From: an uncultured Kouleothrix sp.
GTDB taxonomy: Bacteria > Chloroflexota > Chloroflexia > Chloroflexales > Roseiflexaceae
Length of the DNA stretch: 12,572 bases
Assembly (NCBI GenBank): GCA_937858455.1
Contig: CALLYN010000611.1
Span: forward strand, 1 to 12,572
Reading direction: 5' to 3'
Below, one piece after another: positions 1 through 12,572 of the stretch. Under the pieces are notes generated by a model. It was not told the origin of the DNA. It saw only the letters and a program-made list of their open reading frames with translations, and searched no databases. Position 1 is the first letter of the stretch; the number at the start of each line of letters is the position of its first letter. Both the position numbers and the translations under genes were made by a program.

Positions 1-606
1 AGCTCCATCAGATGGGTGCAGGCCGCGCGCTTCTCCAGCCGCGCGCGCACCGCCGAGCAAGCGATCATTGCGCGCGTACGGCCGGCGCTTGGCACAACCG
101 AACTGTCGTTCCAGTATCGCAGCCCGTACAGCGCTCCGGATGAGGTCGAGCAGCACCGGGTCGCGCCCTACGAGCTGTTCCAGCGCGACGGCTCGACCTA
201 CCTGGAAGCCTACTGCATCGACGCGAGCCTCAAGCAGCTGTGCGGGCGGTACATCGCCTACCGGCTCGACCGGATCGTGGCCGGGTCGGTGCGCCGGCTG
301 CCGAAACAGCTCCCGCCGGTGCGCTATGCGCGCCGTTCGTACCGCCTGCGCTACGAGCTCACACCCGCCGTCGCGCGCCGCCGTGATATTGCGCTCTGGT
401 TTGCAGGCAGCAGCTGCACGTATACCGACGCCGGCGGCGCAATCGTCGAGGCCTGCATCACCGATCTGTGGTACGCACGCGAGGTGCTGCTACGCTACCG
501 CGAGCACTGCCGCGTGATCGAGCCGCCCGAGCTGATTGCCATGATCCGCGAAAGCCTCGGGCGCATGGCCGCGCTGTATGCCGAGCGACCACCACCGGAG
601 GATTGA
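1..606 (+). CDS. WYL-domain regulator, 5' end outside the window
   Basis: The reading frame is open from base 1, so the gene almost certainly starts upstream and the N-terminal HTH is not visible. Codons about 35-93 match a WYL domain: a beta-strand with FQYRSP, then HRVAPYELF, a YLEAYC strand and the closing RLDRI. The name-giving WYL tripeptide is TYL here. Codons about 115-195 (RYELTPAVARR ... LLRYREHCRVIEPPELIAMI) fit the WCX extension usual in this family. WYL proteins are ligand-responsive transcription factors, often found beside CRISPR-Cas and other defence genes, where the domain is thought to bind nucleotides or nucleic acid. The gene ends 2 bases before the next start and so lies in one operon with the CARF gene. 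It probably regulates that locus; this role is inferred from the neighbourhood. A GTG at 16 could serve as a start but would leave no HTH. Confidence 0.82.
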   Translation, partial: SSIRWVQAARFSSRARTAEQAIIARVRPALGTTELSFQYRSPYSAPDEVEQHRVAPYELFQRDGSTYLEAYCIDASLKQLCGRYIAYRLDRIVAGSVRRLPKQLPPVRYARRSYRLRYELTPAVARRRDIALWFAGSSCTYTDAGGAIVEACITDLWYAREVLLRYREHCRVIEPPELIAMIRESLGRMAALYAERPPPED

Positions 607-608
607 CC

Positions 609-1268
609 ATGACCGACACACACACCACGTCGCTGCTCGTCACCCGGCAGCACCACCTGGAAGTACTACAGCGGCAGCTTGCGACGTTTGGTGAGCTGTA
701 CGCGCCACCGCATATTATCACCGGGATCGCCCAAACCCAGGCTGAGATCAGCCAGCTGCGCCAGCAGCGCACCCAGCAGATACCCCGCCCGGCCACGCTG
801 GCATCGGCGGCGCCGCCCGCAGCTCGCGGCCTGGTCGTGCTGATCAGCCCGCGCCGCCCGACTGAGCGGCTCGAAGACATGGCCAGCTATCAGGCGCTCC
901 TGTATCACCGCCAGCTGACGCACTGCTGGCTGATCGCCACCAGCGGCGAAGGCGGCTCGCTCGCCACTGCGCACGAGCTCGCGCGGTATTTTTCTGGGGT
1001 GCAGAGCGCGATCTGGCAGGTGCTCGACCCGATCCACGCTGACGAGACGTTTGCGCTGGTCGAGCGGATCTTCACGATCGATCTTCCTGACGCTGGGCTG
1101 ACCGCCAGCGACGTGCTCGCCGACATCACCGGCGGCACCAAGCCGATGACCGCCGGGATGGTGCTGGCCTGCGGCCACCAGCGCGCGATGCAGTATATGG
1201 TCTACCAGCCAGCGGGGCCGTCACTGCCGGTGGCGCTGCGCGTTCAGGCTGGCGACAATCCGGCGTAG
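609..1268 (+). CDS. CARF-domain protein with helical N-terminal adaptor-like module
   Basis: Start is the ATG at 609, with GGAGGA at 597-602 six bases upstream; a longer in-frame extension overlaps the WYL gene and is unlikely. The 219-aa product has a helical N-terminus (residues about 7-52, with LEVLQRQLATFG and a PPHIITGIAQTQAEI stretch). It resembles the short effector-associated modules found on Chloroflexota and cyanobacterial conflict proteins. A linker follows, then a CARF-like Rossmann domain (about 74-215): first strand GLVVLISPRR, second strand CWLIATSGEG, and the signature DITGGTKPM at 172-180. CARF domains bind cyclic oligoadenylates made by type III CRISPR Cas10. No HEPN RxxxxH nuclease motif is visible, so this looks like a sensor or adaptor, or a ring nuclease, rather than a Csm6-type RNase. 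The family is fairly clear; the exact function is not. Confidence 0.75.
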   Translation: MTDTHTTSLLVTRQHHLEVLQRQLATFGELYAPPHIITGIAQTQAEISQLRQQRTQQIPRPATLASAAPPAARGLVVLISPRRPTERLEDMASYQALLYHRQLTHCWLIATSGEGGSLATAHELARYFSGVQSAIWQVLDPIHADETFALVERIFTIDLPDAGLTASDVLADITGGTKPMTAGMVLACGHQRAMQYMVYQPAGPSLPVALRVQAGDNPA

Positions 1269-3030: not shown

Positions 3031-3314
3031 AAGAAGAGCATGCTTTTCAGATCATACGTGACGTTGCGGCAGTCCTCGATCGGCGAATGGCAGACAGCGA
3101 CTCTGGGTTTGGTGCGAGCCAGAGTGCCCATCCGATCAGTCCCACTGCCGAAGTCGCCGGGGCAAACCCGATGGTGAACCTGGCCGTGCGGCGCACGTTA
3201 TGCGCACAAAGTGGCCGATCGCACCCACGGCGATCGTCAAGCGGGGTGGTACCGCCGGTTGTTTTCGCCCGTCCCGGCGTGATCTTTGATGACGCCTGGG
3301 CGGGCCGCTTGTTT
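3031..3314 (+). promoter_or_regulatory. T-box riboswitch (tRNA-sensing leader) upstream of a regulator gene
   Basis: The leader shows the ordered landmarks of a transcriptional T-box. Stem I has helices CGGCAGT/ACTGCCG (3067-3073 with 3144-3150) and GATCGG/CCGATC (3078-3083 with 3132-3137). An AG box AGCGA (3096-3100) is followed by an apical helix ACTCTGG/CCAGAGT (3100-3106 with 3119-3125) around a GTTTGGTGCGAG loop carrying the GGUG motif. A Stem II-like region holds CGTTA (3196-3200), the F-box core. Stem III is CGATCGC/GCGATCG (3216-3222 with 3230-3236). The T-box GGGTGGTACCGCC (3244-3256) carries the UGGU bulge that pairs with a tRNA NCCA end, and CGTCCC (3270-3275) completes the antiterminator. 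UGGU implies a discriminator A73. The specifier is unresolved: AUC (3135-3137, Ile), GUC (Val) and CCC/CCA (Pro) all lie in the right place. T-boxes normally control amino-acid genes; here the next gene is a regulator. Confidence 0.82.
3268..3314 (+). terminator. T-box-controlled terminator hairpin
   Basis: CCCGTCCCGGCGT (3268-3280) pairs with ACGCCTGGGCGGG (3292-3304) with one C/T mismatch and one wobble. The inner ATC/GAT continues the stem, and a modest T-rich TTGTTT follows at 3309-3314. The 5' arm includes the CGTCCC needed for the antiterminator, so the two structures are mutually exclusive, as in known T-box leaders. Confidence 0.78.
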
Positions 3315-3336
3315 ATGTACGCCAGAGGTGGCATGT

Positions 3337-5484
3337 ATGGCGTCAACCAGGCAAACGCCAAACCAGGCTGCAGATGGTGAGGCGCACATGGCTCCCCAGC
3401 CGCCAGATGATGGTGAGCCTGAGACAATTGATGCGAGCAATGAGCTGCTCAAAGAGCTCGTCGAGCGTATCCACAAGCGTGCCGAGGGCTGGCGCGATGC
3501 GCTGACCGTCAGCATTGGGCGCGCGCGTGAGCTGACGAATCTTGAGGAAACGCGCATTCGTTATTTCGAAGAGCTGGGTGCGCTACAGCCAACCAAACTC
3601 GCCGGTGGTGCGGGTTCGAATCGCCTGTATACCCTCGCCGATCTGCGCTGCCTGTATGCTCTCGCCATTCTGGTCAAAGAGCACGACTACCGCCCACAGG
3701 CAGCTGCGCTGCTCGTTAAACATCATCGTGATCTGATCGTATCTGGCCGGCCAGATTCGCTGCATACCTTAGTGGAGCGTGAAGGCGACGTCGTTACCGA
3801 TGGCTTTGTGCTCGCCCGACTCATGAGCCAACTGCTCGACGCGGTACAAGCTGAGTTTGCGCCTGGCTGTGGCAGCCAGGCTAGTCCGACTGCTCCAGCA
3901 GGCGCGAGTGCGCCGTCGCTCCGTGTTGTCGGAGTGCTATTGTCGCTGCAAAATATGTTCTTTGATTCGCGCGGGCCTGCTCCAGCGGTTGTCCAGCGGA
4001 TGGGTCGTGCGATATGCAAGCGCCCAAAGGATACTCTGATCGCGCTCGATCGGGCCGCATTCTTCGGCACCGATGCCAGGGCGGCTCGCTTTGCCTCGCA
4101 GCAGACAAGCGTACGCAATGACAGCACTATTCTGCTGTATAGCCGTGATGATGCCTGGGATATTCCACTGCAGAAACACCACCGTTTCTGCTTTTACACA
4201 TCATCACAGCAGCAGCTGTCGATGTGGCTGATTCTCGAAGGCGCCGCGGAGATGACCCCTGCTTCTCCTTTACTCTTCAGCCCGCAACGCCGTACGCTTG
4301 TGGATCGTGTGCTGTCAATGTGCGCGCAGATCTTCCAGTCGTTTCGTGATAGCTCGCTCGCAAAAAACTATCGCTATCGCTCGGACGGCTTTCAGATCGA
4401 GCACTCGCAGAAGACATATAGTGCTCTGCTCAAGCTCATTGTCGATCTGATCTTCTCAGATCCCAACGATAGTGTAGCCGCATTGCTGATCCCAAACAGC
4501 CTTGAACATCCTACAACGTTGGCCATGCTAGCAAACCATAATTATGCCGACGAGCTGGTGTCGCGCGTAAAGCTCGATCTCCATGGCGAGGGACAAGGAT
4601 TGTGTGGACGTGCGTACAATGTGCGTGAGCCATTTTTCTCTGCCAACACCCGCAGCGACCCGCGCGTGGCGTATGCGCTTGAAGAACATAGCCAGGTAGC
4701 GTTGGCGATACCATTGGTGATGAGCGGCGTGGTTGCGCCGCTCGGCGTGCTGTATTTGGCGTCGCAGAAATCGCAGCCGGCGTTGCGGAGCGACGATGCC
4801 TACTTCGCGCTCATCCTGGGTAATATTTTGAGCGAGCAGCTTGGGCGCTGGTGGCTCACGCGCTTGCGAAAAACACACGACCAGACCCTGCACGAGCAGA
4901 TGGAGCCGATCACTCGCTGGTTCGATAGCCTCAACCCGCACGGCCGCGATTTTCAGGAGGCGATCGATGAGCTGCAGAAGCTGTGGCTCACGATTCATGC
5001 GGATGATACCGACGCCGATACATCGAATGTAGCGCTGCTGCTGTTTGATATCGATAGCTACCGGCAAAATGTCCAGGTGCGCAGCACCGACCCGGTACCG
5101 CTCGAAGCACAGATGCACGTTCGGAAAGCCATCCTCAAGATTTTACCAAACACGCGCGACTACTGGTTTAAGCATGATCATGTATTGGTGATAGTGCATA
5201 ATTACAAAGTAGAGCAGGTGATTGCCTTTGCCCGGCGCATCGCCAACCAGGTTCGCGCCGTGCCTCTTTCCATTCAAGGCGCGGATGGTAAAAATATTAC
5301 CCTCAGTGTGAGTGGGGCGATCAAGATGATGAGCTACCGTGATCTCCACGATCTTGACGCGATTGGTCAAGCGCAGTTCCGTCACCAGATCGAGGTGGTG
5401 CTCGACGACCTGCGCGAGCAAACGGCGCACTCCACCGCGCACTCGCTGCAGATACTCAAGCCTGAGGGCTGGACGCCAGCCTAA
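3337..5484 (+). CDS. MerR-type HTH, GAF and degenerate GGDEF regulator
   Basis: I prefer ATG 3337 (AGAGGTG six bases upstream); ATG 3388 after GGTGAGG is an alternative. The frame runs back to a TTG at 3286, but that lies inside the leader's terminator hairpin. From 3337 the product is 715 aa. Residues about 57-128 form a winged MerR-like helix-turn-helix (GRARELTNLEETRIRYFEEL, then RLYTLADLRCL). The middle (about 140-350) is not recognised. A GAF-like sensor spans about 361-480 (GLCGRAYNVREPFFSANTR, VAPLGVLYLAS). A GGDEF-fold domain spans about 560-690 (VALLLFDIDSYRQN), but the GGDEF loop reads FKHDHVLVIV near residue 610, so cyclase activity is unlikely. It is probably a DNA-binding signal integrator; its ligand is unknown. 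Codon third positions are visibly less GC-biased than in flanking operons. Its expression should be set by tRNA charging through the T-box leader. Confidence 0.78.
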   Translation: MASTRQTPNQAADGEAHMAPQPPDDGEPETIDASNELLKELVERIHKRAEGWRDALTVSIGRARELTNLEETRIRYFEELGALQPTKLAGGAGSNRLYTLADLRCLYALAILVKEHDYRPQAAALLVKHHRDLIVSGRPDSLHTLVEREGDVVTDGFVLARLMSQLLDAVQAEFAPGCGSQASPTAPAGASAPSLRVVGVLLSLQNMFFDSRGPAPAVVQRMGRAICKRPKDTLIALDRAAFFGTDARAARFASQQTSVRNDSTILLYSRDDAWDIPLQKHHRFCFYTSSQQQLSMWLILEGAAEMTPASPLLFSPQRRTLVDRVLSMCAQIFQSFRDSSLAKNYRYRSDGFQIEHSQKTYSALLKLIVDLIFSDPNDSVAALLIPNSLEHPTTLAMLANHNYADELVSRVKLDLHGEGQGLCGRAYNVREPFFSANTRSDPRVAYALEEHSQVALAIPLVMSGVVAPLGVLYLASQKSQPALRSDDAYFALILGNILSEQLGRWWLTRLRKTHDQTLHEQMEPITRWFDSLNPHGRDFQEAIDELQKLWLTIHADDTDADTSNVALLLFDIDSYRQNVQVRSTDPVPLEAQMHVRKAILKILPNTRDYWFKHDHVLVIVHNYKVEQVIAFARRIANQVRAVPLSIQGADGKNITLSVSGAIKMMSYRDLHDLDAIGQAQFRHQIEVVLDDLREQTAHSTAHSLQILKPEGWTPA

Positions 5485-5504
5485 GGCTCGCTCTTCCACC
5501 TTTC

Positions 5505-5564
5505 GCAAACACAACCCCCAGTTCTCGAACACGATAGCCTGAAGTCAGGCTCTTCAGTGTTTGC
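5505..5564 (+). terminator. Weak terminator-like structure after the MerR/GAF gene
   Basis: AGCCTG/CAGGCT (5536-5541 with 5546-5551, loop AAGT) is enclosed by an outer GCAAACAC/GTGTTTGC pair (5505-5512 with 5557-5564). It lies 20-80 bases after the stop at 5484. The T-run is poor, so the termination role is only probable. Confidence 0.5.
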
Positions 5565-5649
5565 TCCATGCTTGCCGATACGATCTCAATATAATCTCGA
5601 AAGTCCGCACATTTTCCAAAAATATTCTAAATTTGTTTAATTCATCCTA

Positions 5650-5678
5650 TTGACCCACTGGGATCGATCCGCTATGAT
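5650..5678 (+). promoter_or_regulatory. Sigma70-type promoter
   Basis: TTGACC (5650-5655), a 17-base spacer and TATGAT (5673-5678) form a strong promoter; transcription would start near 5685. A long A/T-rich tract lies upstream and includes TTTTCCAAAAATAT (5612-5625), close to the element before the 2996 promoter. Confidence 0.72.
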
Positions 5679-5721
5679 GATCGCAATCGACACGACGATC
5701 GCGGTTAGATAGGGAGTCGGT

Positions 5722-5895
5722 ATGACGCAGGGTTGGATATCTGGCGGCAGTAGCCTAGCTCACTGCCCGCTACGAGCACACAATAATGCGCAATCAGCTC
5801 GCACCCCACATCGGCCGCTCATCTATCCATACCGTTCCACCACACTCTGGTGTGGTAGGTCACGACGTGGGGCATTCCTGCCTATCGGTACTTAG
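5722..5895 (+). CDS. Possible 57-aa small ORF inside the candidate RNA
   Basis: ATG 5722 has GGGAG (5712-5716) five bases upstream and runs to TAG 5893-5895. The product begins MTQGWISGGSS and is rich in Arg, His and Pro, with no domain, signal or membrane segment I can recognise. It overlaps the strongest RNA helices, which argues for RNA structure rather than protein as the conserved function. It is listed because promoter, SD and ORF are in order. Confidence 0.2.
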   Translation: MTQGWISGGSSLAHCPLRAHNNAQSARTPHRPLIYPYRSTTLWCGRSRRGAFLPIGT

Positions 5896-5923
5896 GCGCG
5901 CGCCTTCAACCTTCTTCATACGC

Positions 5924-5953
5924 AACAGGCGCCTCACGGCGCCTGTTTGATTC
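5924..5953 (+). terminator. Terminator of the candidate RNA, or attenuator
   Basis: A perfect 10-bp stem AACAGGCGCC/GGCGCCTGTT (5924-5933 with 5938-5947) closes a TCAC loop and is followed by TGATTCT. This is a Rho-independent terminator, or an attenuator if transcription continues to the gene at 6149. Confidence 0.7.
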
Positions 5954-6148
5954 TCCAGTTTCTACCTGAGCGAGCTTTGCGCGAATGCACCGTCGCGGCG
6001 ATGCAGAATACGATCATCGTTCTAAAAACACCCGCCTTCCAAAGCACACGCAGATCATCAATGCATCCGCCTGTCCCAACGCTGGGACACCGTTGGCAAT
6101 GCTGCCCAACCATCAGCGCGACTCACGCGCTTTCGAAGGGAGGACACG
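5954..6148 (+). other. Leader of the BTAD gene with three small hairpins
   Basis: No gene or consensus promoter is convincing here. Hairpins seen are TGTCCCA/TGGGACA (6072-6078 with 6083-6089, loop ACGC), GTTGG/CCAAC (starting about 6093, closing near 6110) and GCGCG/CGCGC (6116-6120 with 6126-6130). The last lies just upstream of the ribosome binding site AGGGAGGA at 6137-6144. They could tune translation or bind a regulator. Confidence 0.45.
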
Positions 6149-6886
6149 ATGAGCATTGGCTGCGAATCGACAGTGATGTTTCCGCCAACACTCCAGGCCG
6201 TTTACATCCGCACGCTTGGCGCATATGAGGCGACCAGGGATGCAGTGCAGCTGAACTGGCAGGGCGCCGGCGTTGGCGCGCGTAAGCTTCAGCGTGGACT
6301 CTCACATCTGCTTGCGAAGCGTGACCAGCTGGTTGGCCGTGAGGTATTGATCGAGCTGACCGAAACGCGTAATATCGTCTCAGGTATCAAGACAATGCTG
6401 TGCCGGTGGGGCATGAAGCCCGCGTTCGACTTGCGTAGCCTCAACGTGATTCTGATGCGTCACACGAGCTGGTATACCGATGGCGATCGCCTCGAAGAGC
6501 TGCTCAAGCGAGCAGCGCAGCTTGAAGCATCGGGCGATCTTGCCGGCCGGCTTGCCGTCCTTGAGCAGATCGAACCGCTCTGTGGCGGGCGTTTTTTGCC
6601 AGACTATGATTCGGTGCCAGAGTATTCGATCGATGATGAAGTCGCGTTCTGGCAGCTTCGCCAGAAAGAGGCGCTTCAGACGTTGGCCTGGGCGCGGATC
6701 GCGACAAATGATCCGCACTTGTGCGCACCGGCATTGCGGGCAGCCGTGCGGGCTCTTCGGTTCGATCCGGAAAATCCTACCGCGTATCAGTTTGCCGCTG
6801 ATATCGCTCGACGCGGCAGCCATGAAGCTCGCGCTCGCCATTATGAGGCCTTAGCACGCTACTACGAGCGCTGTCACGATAATTAA
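6149..6886 (+). CDS. BTAD-domain (SARP-like) transcriptional regulator
   Basis: ATG 6149 follows AGGGAGGA by 4 bases. The 245-aa protein has an N-terminal winged-helix region (about 10-95: VYIRTLGAYEATRD, GARKLQRGLSHLLAKRDQL) like the OmpR-type DNA-binding fold of SARP proteins. A bacterial transcriptional activation domain of TPR-like helices follows (about 113-240: LEELLKRAAQLEASGDLAGR, CGGRFLPDYD, RALRFDPENPTAYQFAADIA). SARP/BTAD proteins activate target operons through this pair. At 245 aa it matches the minimal form with no ATPase or sensor domains. It stands alone between two terminators, 181 bases before the tubulin-like/RT operon, and may control that operon or the CARF genes; this is inference from position. 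The N-terminal half is divergent, so DNA binding is less certain than the BTAD. Base composition is lower in GC than the operon that follows. Confidence 0.75.
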   Translation: MSIGCESTVMFPPTLQAVYIRTLGAYEATRDAVQLNWQGAGVGARKLQRGLSHLLAKRDQLVGREVLIELTETRNIVSGIKTMLCRWGMKPAFDLRSLNVILMRHTSWYTDGDRLEELLKRAAQLEASGDLAGRLAVLEQIEPLCGGRFLPDYDSVPEYSIDDEVAFWQLRQKEALQTLAWARIATNDPHLCAPALRAAVRALRFDPENPTAYQFAADIARRGSHEARARHYEALARYYERCHDN

Positions 6887-6913
6887 AACAAGCCAATAAT
6901 CTTATACGATCTT

Positions 6914-6950
6914 GAAACAGCGGGAATACTACCCGCTGTTTCTTATTTTA
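6914..6950 (+). terminator. Strong Rho-independent terminator
   Basis: An 11-bp perfect stem GAAACAGCGGG/CCCGCTGTTTC (6914-6924 with 6932-6942) with a 7-nt loop is followed by TTATTTTA. It ends the BTAD gene and separates the regulator block from the downstream operon. Confidence 0.93.
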
Positions 6951-6994
6951 ATAGAAAGATCTTTGATTTGTCGTGGAGCGATCTGTGAGCAGGT

Positions 6995-7003
6995 TGCTAG
7001 TAT
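6995..7003 (+). promoter_or_regulatory. Possible extended -10 promoter of the tubulin/RT operon
   Basis: TGCTAGTAT (TG at 6995-6996, TAGTAT 6998-7003) resembles an extended -10 element. No matching -35 box lies at the usual distance, so an activator such as the neighbouring BTAD protein may be needed. It sits 65 bases before the first gene and after a strong terminator, so some promoter must be close by. Confidence 0.35.
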
Positions 7004-7067
7004 ACAAACACTGAGCGGCGATGGTGCCGTGTGATTACCGAGCAGCGTATGCACCAGGAGGAACGCA

Positions 7068-8222
7068 ATGCATCTGAACAGCCAACAGCTCCAGCGCGCA
7101 GGCCAAGCCGCACGGCCATCCGCGCCACGCGGCGAGCTTGCACGCCCGCCGGCCGACCTTGATGTCGCGGTGATCGGCATCGGCAACTCGGGCGAGGCCG
7201 TGGCGCTACGGCTTCAGGCCCTGGCCTATCTCGATGGCACCTGGCTGAACACGAGCGGTCTGAACAACGACCGGCTGCCGCCGCGCCCGCTCGCGCTGCC
7301 CGGTGCGCCCGAGCCGCTTACCCTCGTCGAGCGGCTGGTGCTCGACGCCGATAACCCGCGCGAGCGCTTGCTCGACGAGCCGGTGCTGGCGCGGCGCTAC
7401 GCAGCTGTGCTGCGCGGCATCTCGGTGTTCGAGACTTACCCGCGCGCTGGGTCGGGCGGCCACGGTTTGCCGGGGATCTCGGGCCTGGATATCGACCTGA
7501 ATACCGATCGGGTGCACGTCTGGCTGCGCGGGGTCACGCGCCAGCTCCACGGCGTTGTGCCGCCGGCACCCGGCCAAAGTGCCATCCAGCGCATCCTGGC
7601 CGAGCAGGGGCAGCGCGCCGCACCCGCGCGCGAGAAGCGCGTGATTGTGATCGGTGGGTCGTGCGGCGCAATGGGCAATGCTGGGCACCAGCTTGTTCCG
7701 CCGTTGCTGCATCACACGCTGGCCGAGCAAGGCATCCGGACGTACGAGGTTTGGGGCGTGCTGCTCGGCCCTCGTGCTTTTACCGGCCTGACACCGTATG
7801 TGCGCCATAACTTCCGCGCGCTGATCGAGACGATCGAGCATATGAGCCGGCACGGTCTGCGCCGCCACTACGCGCCCGATCTCGAGATCGCGATGCAGCG
7901 GCCACCCTACGATCGGGTGTTTCTGATCGACGACCCGCGCCTGCCCGGCAGCGCGGCCAGCGTCACCGAGGCCGAGATGGAGCAGTTTCTCGACCAATCG
8001 GCGCTCAGCTTGTACCTGCTGCTGCGTGGCACGATCTGGCCGACGATCGCCAGCCATACTGCAAACGACGACGGCGTGGTGCGGCTCGACGGCCGGCTGC
8101 GCTACCTGCATACCGTGCGCGGCGCGGCGCTGCGGGCCGATCGCGCGCAGCTACATGCCGCGCTGGCGGCCGGGCTGGCTGTGCGCACGCTGGATCAGTT
8201 TCTAGCCCAATTTGCGGCGTAG
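7068..8222 (+). CDS. Divergent FtsZ/tubulin-like GTPase-fold protein
   Basis: ATG 7068 has AGGAGGAA four bases upstream. The 384-aa protein opens with a disordered stretch. A Rossmann strand and loop follow, VAVIGIGNSGEAVALRLQAL (about 33-52), as at the start of FtsZ and tubulin-like domains. VIVIGGSCGAMGNAG (192-206) stands where the tubulin signature GGGTGSG would lie, in degenerate form. GVLLGPRAFTGL followed by RHNFRALIETIEHM resembles the switch strand and the Asn-bearing helix that contacts guanine. Tubulin-like families outside cell division (FtsZl/Tubulin_2 types) have been proposed to remodel membranes. Here the gene heads an operon with coiled-coil and membrane proteins, RNase H and an RT, so it could build a scaffold at the membrane. 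The fold call rests on motif order, and GTP hydrolysis is uncertain because the signature is altered. A plain NAD(P)-binding Rossmann protein is the main alternative. Confidence 0.55.
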   Translation: MHLNSQQLQRAGQAARPSAPRGELARPPADLDVAVIGIGNSGEAVALRLQALAYLDGTWLNTSGLNNDRLPPRPLALPGAPEPLTLVERLVLDADNPRERLLDEPVLARRYAAVLRGISVFETYPRAGSGGHGLPGISGLDIDLNTDRVHVWLRGVTRQLHGVVPPAPGQSAIQRILAEQGQRAAPAREKRVIVIGGSCGAMGNAGHQLVPPLLHHTLAEQGIRTYEVWGVLLGPRAFTGLTPYVRHNFRALIETIEHMSRHGLRRHYAPDLEIAMQRPPYDRVFLIDDPRLPGSAASVTEAEMEQFLDQSALSLYLLLRGTIWPTIASHTANDDGVVRLDGRLRYLHTVRGAALRADRAQLHAALAAGLAVRTLDQFLAQFAA

Positions 8223-8236
8223 AAAGGAGCATTGCT

Positions 8237-9568
8237 ATGCTGTCTCTCCTTAATCGTCCGGCGTCGGCAGCTGAGCCGGCGATCTACCAGGCCGGCGCGC
8301 TGCTCGACGCGTTCGGGCTGACGTTGACGCTGCCTGAGGCGCTCGCGCAGGACGCGGCCGGGCACGCGTTTGAGCCGTTCCAGCTCAGCCCCGAGCGCGA
8401 TCTGGCCGAGCAGTTCGCGCTGCTGATCCGGCCTGAGCCGCTGGCCGGGGCCGAAGCCTTGATCGCTGCGAACCGCCAGCGTATCGATGCTCAGGCCGAG
8501 CAGCAGATCGAGCGGGCGCTCGCCAGCGTGCGTCAGGCGCCGCGATCGTTCATCCAGGATCTCCGCGACACAATCCGTGACCGCTACGAGCAGTTGGCCG
8601 CGCAGCTGGCACAGGCCGACGATGCGTACCGGCGGCTGCAGGAGCGGCTCCACGCCTGGCAAGGGCGCCAGCGTGAGCCGGGGCAGGGGCTGGGCGCCAC
8701 GCTCTGGCAGTGGGTGTTCGGCGGGGAGGATCGGCTGTCGCTGCCCGATGCGATTGCACTCTGGAATCAGCGCGAGGTACTGGCGACCCAGCGCGCGAGC
8801 CTGATCGCTGCGATTGGCATCTTCACTCACCAGATCGAGCGGCTTCGCACCTTGCTCGCCCAGCTCGACGAGCGGCTCGCCGAGACACGTATCGCGCGCG
8901 CGGCGCTGCAGCGCGCGTATGAACAGGCGCGCCAGGCGGCGACGGCCTACGATCCCTGGACACTGCGCGTCACGCCGGCTGCTGCGGTGGAAGCGCTGCT
9001 CGCTCGCGCCGACCCGGCCGAGCTGCTGGCCGAGCTGCTCGGCCGGATGGCTGCAGCCGATGGCGCAGCCTTGGCCGATGTGGCCCGAGCGCTTGCCGAT
9101 GCGGCCGCGACTCAGGCATTGGCGCCGCTGACAATCGCCAACCTGATCGCGCTTGAGGCGCAGAACGGCGATCTAGAGGCGCCTGATCCGCTGGTGCCGA
9201 TTGGCCAGGCGCTGCTCGATATCGCCCAGCAGCCAACCTGGCAGCTTGCACGCGGCGCCCGCCCGCGCAGCGAAACGCTCCAGATTACGCCGGACGGCAG
9301 CCCACTGTATAGCCTTGAAGGGTTAGGCGGCGCAGCCTACGGTGGCGAAACGCTATGCCTCGGTTTTGTGCAGGTGCAGCTGGGCGTTGCCAAAGATGAC
9401 CTGGCGTTGCTGCGCGATGACGACGAGGCGTTCCGCGCTGCGCTGCGCCAGCGGAACCTGTTTGTGCTTGAGGAGCTGGCTCAGGGATGGGTGCCTGAGG
9501 ACGAGGCTGAGCCGAAAACGAACGGCCACGGGCCGCTGCATGGGCCGGAGGTAGAGGTACGCCCATGA
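8237..9568 (+). CDS. Coiled-coil protein of unknown function
   Basis: ATG 8237 follows AAAGGAG, 14 bases after the previous stop. The 443-aa product has no signal peptide or obvious membrane helix. Residues about 60-240 are rich in Gln, Arg, Glu, Leu and Ala with long heptad-like helices (DRYEQLAAQLAQADDAYRRL; then IERLRTLLAQLDERL). These are split by a Trp-rich break (ATLWQWVFGGEDR). Ala-rich helices follow, and a more globular C-terminal part from about 340 (LYSLEGLGGAAYGGETLCLG) ends in an acidic tail. I recognise no family. Position directly after the tubulin-like gene suggests a partner or adaptor linking that GTPase to the membrane components. Its stop overlaps the next start (ATGA), so translation is coupled downstream. 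Confidence 0.7.
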   Translation: MLSLLNRPASAAEPAIYQAGALLDAFGLTLTLPEALAQDAAGHAFEPFQLSPERDLAEQFALLIRPEPLAGAEALIAANRQRIDAQAEQQIERALASVRQAPRSFIQDLRDTIRDRYEQLAAQLAQADDAYRRLQERLHAWQGRQREPGQGLGATLWQWVFGGEDRLSLPDAIALWNQREVLATQRASLIAAIGIFTHQIERLRTLLAQLDERLAETRIARAALQRAYEQARQAATAYDPWTLRVTPAAAVEALLARADPAELLAELLGRMAAADGAALADVARALADAAATQALAPLTIANLIALEAQNGDLEAPDPLVPIGQALLDIAQQPTWQLARGARPRSETLQITPDGSPLYSLEGLGGAAYGGETLCLGFVQVQLGVAKDDLALLRDDDEAFRAALRQRNLFVLEELAQGWVPEDEAEPKTNGHGPLHGPEVEVRP

Positions 9569-9747
9569 GCTGGCTGCGCGTGTATCGCTGGCTGCCGCGC
9601 CTGACGCTCAGCCGGCGCGGCATCAGCATCAGCGTGCGCGTGCCGGGTACCCGCCTGCGCCTGGTATGGCAGCGTACCAGGCGCAGGCCGCAGGCGAAGC
9701 GACCACAGTCCAGGCAGCAGCCTGGCCCAATCAGGAGGGTGCGATGA
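9565..9747 (+). CDS. Small basic DUF4236-like protein
   Basis: This 60-aa ORF starts with an ATGA overlap on the upstream stop and ends with an ATGA overlap on the next start, so it sits inside a coupled chain of three genes. GGAGGT and AGAGG precede it. The N-terminal half (LTLSRRGISISVRVPGTRL) resembles the strand-turn motif of DUF4236 proteins, which pair an SKSGVS-type segment with a VPG turn. The C-terminal half is Arg/Gln/Pro-rich and very basic, which could bind nucleic acid. DUF4236 has no established biochemical role. The reality of the gene is supported by the two overlaps; the family call is tentative. Confidence 0.55.
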   Translation: MSWLRVYRWLPRLTLSRRGISISVRVPGTRLRLVWQRTRRRPQAKRPQSRQQPGPIRRVR

Positions 9748-10808
9748 ACGATCGGTGGGGGCGATTGGCCGCACAGCAGCGGTTGCGCGTATGTCGCTGG
9801 CTCGGCTGTAGCTTGTTGCTTGTGGCGCTGCTCAGCCAGCTCGGCGGCGCGAGCGCACAGCCAGCGCCGGCAGCGGTTGAGCTGGCGCCGGCGATGCCCG
9901 AGGCGCCGCGCCAAAGCCGCGCGCACGGTGTCTTCTTCGCGCGCACCCAGCTGGTAGCCTTGCCTGGTGGGGTGCTGCATCTGGCGTCAACGCCGGATGG
10001 GCGCGGCGATCTTTGCACCGACGACCAGGCAACTATTGTGGTGGCGCGCGGTGCGCACGAGCTGTGGCGCTGGTCGCATCGATTTGTGAGCGCCGACCGT
10101 CTGGCGATCGAGTGCATCGGCGCGCAAACGATCATGCTGCCGCTGGCAGCCGCGAGCTACTCAGCGACCATCGTGCTGGAGGATGTGTACCCCGATACCT
10201 ATGGCACGCGTGCCTATTATCTGGTGCCCGACCCGCCAGCGCCCACGGCTGAAGCAGCGGCGACGCCCAGCCCAGCACCGTTGGTAGCGCCTACACAACC
10301 TGCGCCAATCCAGCCGACTGCGCCGCCGCTCGCGACCTTAGCCACACCGGTGCCGGACACGCCACTCGGGCCACGGCCGGCGCGCTGGACAGCAATCGGC
10401 CTTGCGGCAGGGTTTCTTGCCGGGCTGATCGGGCTCATCTGGTTGCTGCGCCGGTCTCCCGCCGTGTCGCGACAGCGCGCCCGCGCAATCATCGAGCTGT
10501 TCGACCAGGAGACGCGCGAGGCGCGCACGATCGCCGTAACCGAAGAAACAACTCTGATCGCTCGCCGCCCGTTGCGCGCTGCGCCTGCCACGGCGCTGGC
10601 AGCCGAAGCCACGATCGCAAGCATTCAGCTTTCGGCGGTGGGGGCGCTGCTACGGGTCAGCACCGCGCTTCCAAATCAGGCGCCGATCGTGCTGCAGCCC
10701 GACCAGCGCTATCCGCTGGCCGGCGGCGTAGTGCTGCTGCGCTACCGTGGCGATGGCGCGCCGCCGGCTGCGATCGACCGGCCAAGGCCGCCGGCCTGGA
10801 AAGGATAA
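9744..10808 (+). CDS. Signal-peptide, single-TM membrane protein
   Basis: ATG 9744 has AGGAGGG five bases upstream and overlaps the previous stop; an upstream in-frame start at 9666 is not needed. The 354-aa product has a signal peptide (positive N-region, hydrophobic core about 20-33, likely cleavage after ASA at 38). An extracytoplasmic domain of about 130 residues has two Cys (DLCTDD, IECIGA) and a Tyr-rich end. A Pro/Ala/Thr-rich linker follows, then one TM helix at about 215-235 (IGLAAGFLAGLIGLIWLL). The cytoplasmic domain (about 236-354) is beta-rich; TLIARRPL, LSAVGALLRVS and YPLAGGVVLLRY loosely recall an FHA-like sandwich, a weak match. It probably anchors or signals to the cytoplasmic partners (tubulin-like protein, RNase H, RT) across the membrane. 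No enzyme motif is seen. Confidence 0.75.
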   Translation: MNDRWGRLAAQQRLRVCRWLGCSLLLVALLSQLGGASAQPAPAAVELAPAMPEAPRQSRAHGVFFARTQLVALPGGVLHLASTPDGRGDLCTDDQATIVVARGAHELWRWSHRFVSADRLAIECIGAQTIMLPLAAASYSATIVLEDVYPDTYGTRAYYLVPDPPAPTAEAAATPSPAPLVAPTQPAPIQPTAPPLATLATPVPDTPLGPRPARWTAIGLAAGFLAGLIGLIWLLRRSPAVSRQRARAIIELFDQETREARTIAVTEETTLIARRPLRAAPATALAAEATIASIQLSAVGALLRVSTALPNQAPIVLQPDQRYPLAGGVVLLRYRGDGAPPAAIDRPRPPAWKG

Positions 10809-10898
10809 ACGTGATGGTGCGACGACCTGGTGTGTTGTGGGCCTGGCTAGCACGGCTGGCGCAGTCGGCTGCCGGCATCGTATCGAAAGGAGACCATC

Positions 10899-11111
10899 GT
10901 GAAGGAAAGCTTGCTGGCCATGTGGTGCCTGATCGGCATGGCGGCGCTGGCGGCATTGACCGCGCTGGCGGCGCTGCTATTCCGCCCATCGCGGGTACGG
11001 CTACCGCGCCCGCGCCCGGCCCGGCTTCTACGCGGCTGCGTCGCGCTGGCCTGTCTGCTCGTGGCGCTCACGCTGGTGCTGATCGCCATCCTGCTCGCGA
11101 ACCAGGCCTAG
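10899..11111 (+). CDS. Small two-TM membrane protein
   Basis: GTG 10899 follows AAAGGAG (10886-10892) by 6 bases. The 70-aa product has two strongly hydrophobic helices, about residues 7-27 (CLIGMAALAALTALAALLF) and 47-67 (LACLLVALTLVLIAILLA), joined by an Arg/Pro-rich loop. Codon third positions in this frame are nearly all G or C, supporting coding. The 90 bases before it (10809-10898) hold no clear gene, though a second SD and ATG at 10814 open another frame. Tiny two-helix proteins in defence operons can be pore formers, toxins or membrane anchors; nothing here decides which. The stop lies 14 bases before the RNase H start. Confidence 0.68.
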   Translation: MKESLLAMWCLIGMAALAALTALAALLFRPSRVRLPRPRPARLLRGCVALACLLVALTLVLIAILLANQA

Positions 11112-11125
11112 TCGGGCCGGGCGCG

Positions 11126-11557
11126 GTGCTGCTGGTGCAGGTTGACGGCACGCCCGGCGCACAGCCGCGCGGGGTTGCTGGCATTGGGGTGGTAGTGCGC
11201 GACGCTGCAGGGAATGTGCTGACCTGGCGCGGCCTGTGCGCGCCCGCGCACACCAACAACGAGGCCGAGTACCAGGCGCTGATCGCCGGGCTGGAGCTGA
11301 TGCTCCAGCGCTTCCCCGGCCGGCCGGTGATCTGCCTGACCGACAGCCGAATCGCGGTCGAGCAGATCGCCGGGCGCAGCGCCGTGCGTGCAGCGGCTGG
11401 AGCGCCGCTGCACGCACGTGCCATGGCGCTAGCCGGCCAGTTCGCGCAACTGACGTTTGTGGCCATTCCGCGCGAGCTGAACCAGCTGGCCGACGCGCTG
11501 GCCTGGGAGGCGCTGGCCGGCCGGCGGATGATCGCGCGGAAGCTCACCGAGTACTAG
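11126..11557 (+). CDS. Stand-alone type I RNase H
   Basis: The fold begins at once after GTG 11126, giving a 143-aa protein, the usual size of a bare RNase H domain. All four catalytic acidic residues are visible: D7 (VDGTPG), E48 (NNEAEYQAL), D73 (LTDSR) and D123 (LADALA). RNase H cuts the RNA strand of RNA-DNA hybrids, and the next gene is a reverse transcriptase, so together they could supply the polymerase and RNase H activities that retroviral RTs carry in one chain. The start has no good SD; it may be translated by coupling to the upstream membrane gene. The same frame stays open back to 10811, and an ATG at 10814 with GGAAAGGA before it could add an Ala/Gly/Pro-rich N-terminus overlapping the small membrane gene. 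I think the short form is right. Confidence 0.82.
   Translation: MLLVQVDGTPGAQPRGVAGIGVVVRDAAGNVLTWRGLCAPAHTNNEAEYQALIAGLELMLQRFPGRPVICLTDSRIAVEQIAGRSAVRAAAGAPLHARAMALAGQFAQLTFVAIPRELNQLADALAWEALAGRRMIARKLTEY
11383..11418 (+). repeat. 15-bp perfect inverted repeat inside the RNase H gene
   Basis: CGTGCGTGCAGCGGC (11383-11397) pairs perfectly with GCCGCTGCACGCACG (11404-11418) around a TGGAGC loop. The stem encodes an Ala/Arg-rich stretch (VRAAAGAPLHARA) and is unusually long for coding DNA. It could be a protein-binding or RNA-processing site, or a chance product of GC-rich codons. Confidence 0.7.
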
Positions 11558-11574
11558 CCGGATCAACGTGATCA

Positions 11575-11621
11575 GGTGTGAGTTTTGCGTCACGAACAAA
11601 AGATCGACACGAACTCATACC
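11575..11621 (+). promoter_or_regulatory. Hairpin in the RT leader, next to its ribosome binding site
   Basis: GGTGTGAGTT (11575-11584) pairs with AACTCATACC (11612-11621), 10 bp with one wobble, around a 27-nt loop. It ends four bases before the AAGGAGGAG ribosome site of the RT gene. It fills most of the 78-base gap after RNase H and may control RT translation or be a short RNA element bound by the RT. Confidence 0.45.
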
Positions 11622-11635
11622 TCTAAGGAGGAGCT

Positions 11636-12572
11636 ATGCCACTCTTTCCCCGCTACAGCGGCCCGCCGCTGATCGAGCAGATCTGTAGTGTCGAGAATCT
11701 CACACTGGCCTGGCGGCGCGTGCGCAGCAATATTCAGGTAGCGCGGCGCGGACGCAGCGCTGGGCCTGATGCCGTGACGCTGCGTGACTTCGAGGCCGAT
11801 TGGACCCGCCAGATGACGACCCTGGCCGAGGAGCTGCGTAGCGGCGCGTACCGCCCGCTGCCGCCGCGCCACGTGCAGATCCCCAAGGCCAGTGGCGGGG
11901 CGCGTGCAATCGCCATCCTGTCGGTGCGCGACCGCGTGGCCCAGCGCGCGGTACAGCAGGTGGTCGAGCCATTGTTCGACCCGCTGTTTCTCGACTGCTC
12001 GTACGGCTGCCGGCCGCTGGTCGGCGTGCCCGAGGCAGTGGCGCGGGTCGAGCGCTACGCCCAGCAAGGCCTGACCTGGGTAGTCGATGCTGATATCGCC
12101 AGCTACTTCGACACGATCGATCAGCGTATTTTGCTCGGGATGGTTCGCCAGCGGATCGCGGAGCCAGCCCTGCTGCAGATGATCGCCCAATGGCTGACGG
12201 TTGGTGCGCTGCACCGCGACGAGACCGAGCCGATCGCACCGCCCGAGACACGGCTGAGCCGCTGGGGCCAGGCGCTGCGTCGCTTTGCGCCTTGGGGCGG
12301 CCAGCAGCCGGGTGCGCCAGCAGCATTTGGGTTGCCGCCAAGTGAGCTGGCTGACCCCTACGCGGCGGCGATATGGGAGCAGCCAGGCAGCGTCGGGCCG
12401 CTCGGCGCCGGCCCAATGGTCGCCAACAGCCTTGAGCAGCACCTCTGGACGGCGATGATGTTCGCGCGGCCGGTGCTCAGCGGCGCGCGGATGGCCTGGC
12501 CGTATGTACGGCGGGTTGGCGGCAGGCGGATCGCGCTGGCGAGCGCGGTGGCCGCCGGCGCGCTTGCGGCCG
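11636..12572 (+). CDS. Group II-type reverse transcriptase with palm insertion, 3' end outside the window
   Basis: ATG 11636 follows AAGGAGGAGC. The frame stays open for 312 codons to the window edge. Early RT blocks are clear: GRSAGPDAVTLRDFE (about 38-52), IPKASGGARAIAILSVRDRV (about 83-102), CSYGCRP (the usual YGFRP site) and motif A, VVDADIASYFDTID (149-162, catalytic D153). Helices to about 194 (LLQMIAQWLTVGAL) match the segment that normally leads straight to GTPQG. Instead more than 110 unrelated residues follow, containing Pro/Trp-rich stretches and ending in a hydrophobic run (RIALASAVAAGALAA). Motif B, the YxDD motif and the thumb must lie beyond the edge. No intron structure is seen upstream, so it is probably not a mobile group II intron protein. 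CRISPR-linked RTs, DRT/UG defence RTs or DGR RTs remain possible; the C-terminus would decide. Confidence 0.85.
   Translation, partial: MPLFPRYSGPPLIEQICSVENLTLAWRRVRSNIQVARRGRSAGPDAVTLRDFEADWTRQMTTLAEELRSGAYRPLPPRHVQIPKASGGARAIAILSVRDRVAQRAVQQVVEPLFDPLFLDCSYGCRPLVGVPEAVARVERYAQQGLTWVVDADIASYFDTIDQRILLGMVRQRIAEPALLQMIAQWLTVGALHRDETEPIAPPETRLSRWGQALRRFAPWGGQQPGAPAAFGLPPSELADPYAAAIWEQPGSVGPLGAGPMVANSLEQHLWTAMMFARPVLSGARMAWPYVRRVGGRRIALASAVAAGALAA

Follow-up and report, generated by a model that had tools for sequence, protein, structure and literature searches.

Closest described systems

One of the described systems closest to the locus reported here is RT-CRISPR-9 of the Chloroflexi, for which the available part of Toro et al. 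2017 (PMC5541045) gives three records with a reverse transcriptase (RT) separate from Cas1 and no complete operon. Our locus lies on contig C611 (CALLYN010000611.1) of an uncultured Kouleothrix sp., the whole of which, 12,572 nucleotides, was analyzed and is called the window; the source assembly is 71.5% complete and divided into 1123 contigs. Downstream of a terminator-like hairpin, seven plus-strand genes run from position 7068 to the contig end, the first coding for a tubulin-like protein and the last for an RT, and a first-pass annotation of the DNA that listed seven co-directional genes in 7068..12572 was right in their kind and order. The gene set is unusual, composite, and real: an RT-type CRISPR adaptation locus with an unexpected tubulin-like companion.

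The RT of the window and its relatives resemble RT-CRISPR-9 in belonging to Chloroflexota, in being separate from Cas1, and in their link to CRISPR. The RT fits that description, a match of phylum and separate Cas1 that sets our clade beside RT-CRISPR-9 by description only. In the text of PMC5541045, as far as it was available, neither "RNase H" nor "membrane" occurs, and "ribonuclease H" appears in one reference title only; unlike in that account, an RNase H, a mini-protein with two transmembrane helices (two-TM), and SPFH-like or tubulin-like modules recur in our loci. The fused RT-Cas1 of Marinomonas mediterranea works with Cas2 and acquires RNA spacers, according to the portion of PMC11014452 consulted; in the relatives of the window RT, too, the RT is paired with Cas1 and Cas2, although as a separate protein instead of a fusion. 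A survey of hot-spring Cas1 genes, also available in part, counts 26 RNase H-like open reading frames near unclassified Cas1 genes (PMC9755687).

On the tubulin side, the nearest relatives are the FtsZl1/Tubulin_2 systems (Makarova and Koonin 2010, PMC2875224, in part), which share a divergent tubulin fold, a coiled-coil region, and membrane or secreted partners, with a vWA protein in the case of FtsZl1. Conflict systems that combine GTPases, tubulins, and vWA membrane proteins have a predicted antiviral role (Kaur et al. 2020, PMC7159879); in the sections of that paper available to us, the RT encountered is that of diversity-generating retroelements, and we met no Cas1-linked RT.

The reverse transcriptase and its CRISPR context

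The adaptation end of the window contains three genes.

10899..11111, + strand: two-TM mini-protein upstream of RNase H, two hydrophobic helices by hydropathy
11126..11557, + strand: RNase HI-type nuclease, RVT_3 E 1.1e-18, over the cut-off
11636..12572, + strand: reverse transcriptase, 3' end missing at the contig edge, RVT_1 E 1.2e-10

The window RT stops within the long RT4-RT5 stretch, before the active-site box. We compared 31 RT loci: the window, 22 from a set of 60 genomes that includes its own, locus L061, six from a draw of 400 Chloroflexota genomes (own included; the RT, tubulin-like, and Tubulin_2 scans are taken as the same draw), and L102, the one new RT locus among 120 genomes of the class of genome G159. 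L102 has RNase H, Cas1, and Cas2; its contig, 8 kb long, shows no tubulin-like gene. Two further stretches, L063 and L062, are taken as the same loci as L049 (genome G028) and L058 (genome G055), respectively. RT matches at E 1e-10 or better occur in 29 of the 60 genomes; the close family (E < 1e-60) comprises 22 loci in 21 genomes of that set besides the window, and at E 1e-50 the family is found in 24 of the 400 phylum genomes.

Cas1 follows the RT at 28 of the 31 loci, which is every locus that continues past the RT (28/28, one of them, L100, with a decayed copy); the window, L050, and L061 end inside the RT. Cas2 was found at 27/31. All of the 12 loci chosen for holding repeats (nine of 22 screened plus L096, L098, and L102), a preselected sample, have CRISPR arrays, with repeats of at least 36 nucleotides and a period of about 74. 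The xxDD box is present in all 21 of the 24 aligned RTs that are long enough to include it. Most aligned RTs also show an Ala/Gly-rich hydrophobic stretch, of borderline hydropathy, between the RT4 block and RT5. The relatives have a short C-terminus and about 140 residues from the RT4 block end to RT5 (judged on L049), more than intron RTs are known to have. No group II intron RNA reached the Rfam gathering score in six sources. With Cas1 downstream, arrays, the xxDD box, and no intron RNA, we can conclude that this RT almost certainly belongs to CRISPR adaptation. The first-pass annotation did not recognize this; Cas1 in all continuing relatives and the arrays at the preselected loci point to CRISPR memory acquisition and not to a new RT system of its own. 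As regards a possible type III association, Csm3-type genes are present in L044 and L042, and a Csx7-like gene in L061 falls just below the cut-off.

The RNase H is a predicted nuclease, its D-E-D-D residues being present when read by eye. It precedes the RT at 26 of the 31 loci; L006 begins too late to judge. Since most loci retain it next to the RT, it probably acts on RT products. By hydropathy, a two-helix open reading frame lies directly 5' of RNase H in 20 of the 21 Chloroflexales loci tested and in none of three distant loci. The RNase H frame could be read with a long N-terminal extension, but we rejected this: the extension overlaps the two-TM gene out of frame, and of the two only the two-TM gene is conserved. 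In L100 (genome G405, oriented RT-forward), positions 6455-7689 hold an RT fragment with a 129-residue match running straight into a Cas1 fragment, both decayed; the two-TM gene is retained.

The tubulin-like protein and its block

Upstream of these three genes lie the tubulin-like gene and its companions, together with two regulators on the other side of the hairpin.

3286..5484, + strand: MerR-HTH and GAF regulator, first gene of the conserved block, MerR_1 over the Pfam cut-off and GAF_2 just below
6149..6886, + strand: TPR/BTAD-like (SARP-type) protein of the conserved block, weak TPR_14
6914..6942, + strand: intrinsic-terminator-like hairpin, 11-bp stem with 7 G-C pairs, T-rich tail
7068..8222, + strand: tubulin/FtsZ-like protein, 384 residues, probable GTPase, divergent relative of FtsZl1/Tubulin_2
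8237..9568, + strand: coiled-coil/helical partner protein, 443 residues, model helices 71-97, 103-145, and 169-236
9565..9747, + strand: small basic protein, DUF4236-like, PF14020 E 0.0043, below the cut-off
9744..10808, + strand: membrane protein, by hydropathy with signal peptide, extracytoplasmic domain, Pro-rich linker, one TM helix, and C-terminal domain

The FtsZ/tubulin-like call of the first reading is borne out by the predicted structure, which has the tubulin/FtsZ fold, though Pfam is blind to it: neither the window protein nor three close homologues gave a Pfam tubulin match, and the PF13809 cut-off was not reached. In a profile-profile comparison (hhalign), the protein matches a Tubulin_2 domain at E 6.1e-6. 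The PDB searched by sequence returned no tubulin, its eight matches (best E 0.09) being other proteins. As to a phage origin of the gene, one scan of viral contigs with the window protein, sensitive to close relatives only, gave no match.

Tubulin-like homologues are found in 3 of the 60 and in 4 of the 400 genomes (own counted each time) and at three loci in a genome collection. The block is carried by the window genome, "Candidatus Oscillochloris fontis" (G028), Oscillochloris sp. ZM17-4 (G055), and Chloroflexaceae SM1_1_0 (L061), all of which we take to belong to the order Chloroflexales. On single contigs of the window genome, O. fontis, and SM1_1_0, the order is MerR-GAF, TPR, tubulin-like, coiled-coil, membrane protein, two-TM, (RNase H), and RT, so the block stands upstream of the RT at 3 of the 31 loci (window, L049, and L061). 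Upstream in SM1_1_0 there are type III Cas7-like genes. ZM17-4 has the block on one contig and an RNase H-RT-Cas1-Cas2 piece on another, and both contigs break in the gap. A fifth and distant carrier, G182, has the membrane protein, the tubulin-like gene, and a helical neighbor. The block thus recurs in this order, on one contig with the RT, in two other Chloroflexales, and RT and tubulin-like gene, whose failure to co-occur elsewhere would have told against the first-pass annotation, do co-occur. Compared with FtsZl1, known to us from part of the source, the Chloroflexales version differs in its short domain, in a coiled-coil gene that is separate, in the lack of a vWA gene in the block, and in its place upstream of a CRISPR adaptation RT.

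The companions are conserved to different degrees. Homologues of the coiled-coil protein occupy the same position with 41% identity in L061 and 38% in L063. Its model is unreliable over residues 311-443 and gave no Foldseek match at E 0.001 or better; a comparison with the helical neighbor in G182 (hhalign E 0.067, probability 0.8%) hints at similarity and no more. The membrane protein has homologues in L061, L063, and L068, and the DUF4236-like protein has no separate counterpart between its neighbors in L061 or L049/L063. MerR-GAF homologues precede the tubulin-like gene in L061, L062/L058, and L063/L049, and the TPR/BTAD-like gene is in the same place in L049, L058, and L061, the L061 homologue with a weak BTAD match. 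The C-terminal part of the MerR-GAF protein (about 5000-5330) retains aspartates within DID and WFKHDH motifs, in an arrangement recalling GGDEF/palm cyclases; it gave no Pfam GGDEF match. In G182, an apparent CHAT/TPR protein, read from sequence only, lies downstream of the RT-free tubulin-like genes (L068 3210-5663).

A second tubulin association and the SPFH/Band-7-like companion

Two genomes of another Chloroflexota family, G402 and G159, contain VWA, Tubulin_2, a third large protein, RNase H, RT, Cas1, and Cas2 consecutively. Their Tubulin_2 proteins are canonical (E 9e-47 and 1.8e-42; those of L096 and L097 pass the PF13809 cut-off), the VWA protein has a signal-peptide-like start, and in L096 (G402) an array is also present. 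The RTs of both genomes form their own well-supported branch of the RT tree. In a related genome, G392, the contig starts at RNase H and goes on with RT, Cas1, and Cas2. Seven of the 400 genomes hold both a clade RT and a tubulin-like gene, and in four of these (G000, G028, G159, and G402) the two lie within about 5 kb; of the other three, G055 has them on its two broken contigs and G056 and G211 on different contigs. By our own arithmetic, which ignores shared ancestry, a chance neighbor within 10 kb in genomes of about 5 Mb would be expected in roughly 0.4% of cases each.

Elsewhere, in G131, which shares its genus with the RT-linked Tubulin_2 loci, a Tubulin_2 gene lies amid VWA, second large, and kinase-like genes, judged by eye (L103 9334-19901); no RT gene was found on that stretch. 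In G056 (C83, 99340-107694), two Tubulin_2 matches are each listed with a 3518-codon open frame and may both belong to a single giant protein.

A different companion is more frequent. An SPFH/Band-7-like gene is present at 17 of the 31 RT loci, as a fragment in L042 and on the opposite strand in L039 and L040, and never together with a tubulin-like gene at any of them. The set is joined through mutual sequence similarity: Pfam Band_7 matches L036 over the cut-off and L044 just under it, with no match for L037, L032, and L051. The mutual exclusion is a pattern and not proof, as the 31 loci are related, some contigs are short, the tubulin label is not clearly clustered on the RT tree (100 of 500 shuffles gave a value as low), and there are long branches coming together around L051/L052 and L095-L102. 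Upstream of its RT locus, L036 also codes for a CHAT-domain protein (5119-6972, Pfam E 5e-20).

Proposed explanation and its alternatives

The reading that we favor, and hold to be somewhat better than an even bet as a whole, is an RT-CRISPR adaptation locus with a tubulin-like membrane scaffold. The window would be the upstream half of a Chloroflexota locus of this kind, and the missing continuation should bring the rest of the RT, followed by Cas1, Cas2, and a CRISPR array. The RT would copy invader RNA into cDNA, RNase H would strip off the RNA and so allow completion of a DNA protospacer, and Cas1-Cas2 would insert it. The two-TM mini-protein, and perhaps the RT's hydrophobic insertion, may tether these components to the inner membrane. 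There, the tubulin-like, coiled-coil, and transmembrane proteins could form a GTP-dependent scaffold or filament, presumably governed by the MerR-GAF and TPR/BTAD regulators, and the SPFH/Band-7-like protein may play the same role in many sister loci, the scaffolds being interchangeable. Any physical link between the tubulin-like protein and the adaptation proteins is, like the mechanism as a whole, inferred.

Several observations weigh against this explanation. In the window, the GTP-binding loop is altered (GGSCGAMG, with GGGSGSMG in three homologues, versus GGGTG[S/T]G). The membrane evidence is hydropathy throughout, borderline for the RT insertion. RNase H is absent in L050, L061, L098, and L100, where upstream sequence exists, and L061 is a tubulin carrier. 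The M. mediterranea authors, in the part of PMC11014452 at hand, argue against a route of RNase H digestion and second-strand synthesis, because protospacers made in this way would miss the tails that RNA protospacers in that system have and require; where the system includes an RNase H, matters could be different. In a repeat-cluster screen of 22 loci, six had no cluster, four of these on contigs of less than 8 kb. The 71.5% complete assembly of the window gave no partner Cas1 (its sole Cas1 reads as type I-E and lies on another contig), no match to a multi-domain Csm3 profile, and no array with the repeat core of the clade, in the window or elsewhere. In G056 and G211, the Tubulin_2 gene and the RT are on different contigs. 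The tubulin-like gene is not seen at 26 of the 31 RT loci, some on short contigs, and is therefore dispensable; and in G182, 88% complete, the tubulin-like gene and its membrane partner occur while the RT alignment finds no match at E 1e-5.

The tubulin/membrane block is thus an optional module of the CRISPR-adaptation locus. Whether it serves adaptation is, judging from gene arrangement, about an even question that tips if anything to yes: position, orientation, and the second case speak for it, and the 26 loci without the block and G182 without RT against.

The same points bear on the strongest alternative, in which an FtsZl1-type membrane-remodeling or conflict module merely neighbors the adaptation genes, and only RNase H, RT, Cas1, and Cas2 cooperate. 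Besides the RT loci without the gene and G182, it draws on the conflict modules of tubulin and vWA already described (PMC7159879 and PMC2875224, each in part) and on the spread of Tubulin_2, which occurs in 45 of the 400 Chloroflexota genomes, 41 of them without a clade RT. However, the 3/3 Chloroflexales carriers with a long enough contig agree in the block that precedes the RT, in its gene order, and in its orientation, a second tubulin-like family occupies this position in a distant family, and the two other plus-strand terminator-like sites of our scan are within genes, none being intergenic. We regard two separate systems as a serious possibility that falls short of even.

A stand-alone DRT-like defense, in which cDNA made by RT and RNase H is an alarm or toxin, the membrane and tubulin proteins are effectors, and Cas1-Cas2 is unneeded, would account for RT, RNase H, and membrane proteins being co-directional and for the cut-off contig showing no Cas gene past the RT. 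This is quite improbable and was rejected on the PADLOC ranking of the window RT, where the generic RT model (E 3.9e-57) and Cas1_IIIb (E 2e-27) stand above the best UG/DRT model (E 4.4e-22), and on Cas1 in 28/28 relatives. The first-pass idea of a membrane-tethered, cDNA-producing defense with a cytoskeletal scaffold is partly supported: its cDNA, defense, membrane, and cytoskeletal parts stand, within a locus whose RT is of the CRISPR-adaptation kind. The chance insertion of a group II intron maturase next to a tubulin-like operon, which the first reading had named as a refuting outcome and which group_II_RT_mat as the window RT's only NCBIfam match (161 bits versus a cut-off of 300) might suggest, is hardly credible and was rejected, as no group II intron RNA reached the gathering score in six sources, full-length relatives also fail to reach the cut-off of that model (the L063 RT scores 257.9 bits), and the same neighbors recur in many loci, to which the long RT4-RT5 stretch and short C-terminus of the relatives can be added.

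Returning to the scaffolded adaptation locus, its fullest version, in which RNA-derived CRISPR memory forms on a membrane-bound scaffold of tubulin-like protein dedicated to it, RNase H is a built-in step, and the SPFH-like version is interchangeable, is tentative and on balance doubtful. If true, this would be, to our knowledge, the first CRISPR adaptation machinery organized by a cytoskeletal filament, and a recurring tubulin-like/membrane module would give CRISPR adaptation a spatial layer. How an RNA/cDNA hybrid becomes an insertable spacer in RT-CRISPR is unsettled, and the RNase H found next to RT and Cas1 in most of the loci gathered from this phylum allows a direct test. We met no report of this gene set or of such a spatial layer in the literature searched, outside which most subscription papers and supplements lie, so that absence is unproven.

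The left end of the window

Two further genes open the window.

1..606, + strand: WYL/WCX-domain regulator, 5' end cut by the contig, Pfam WYL and WCX, PADLOC WYL E 1.9e-20
609..1268, + strand: CARF-domain protein of the CARF-TM type, PADLOC CARF_2M E 1.2e-26

PADLOC lists this WYL type as CRISPR-associated, and a WYL homologue is present at 6 of the 30 other RT loci. The CARF protein has an open frame from 468, with a likely start at 609 judged by eye, and a partial match, below the cut-off, to the CRISPR CARF model TIGR02710. Several RT loci carry WYL, CARF, or Csx1 genes, resembling this end of the window. Between these genes and the MerR-GAF regulator, positions 1541-2893 code for a C39-like peptidase that looks secreted and contains two fibronectin type III repeats. 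Within its gene, two units of 285 bp (2188-2757) are 94% identical, probably a recent duplication.

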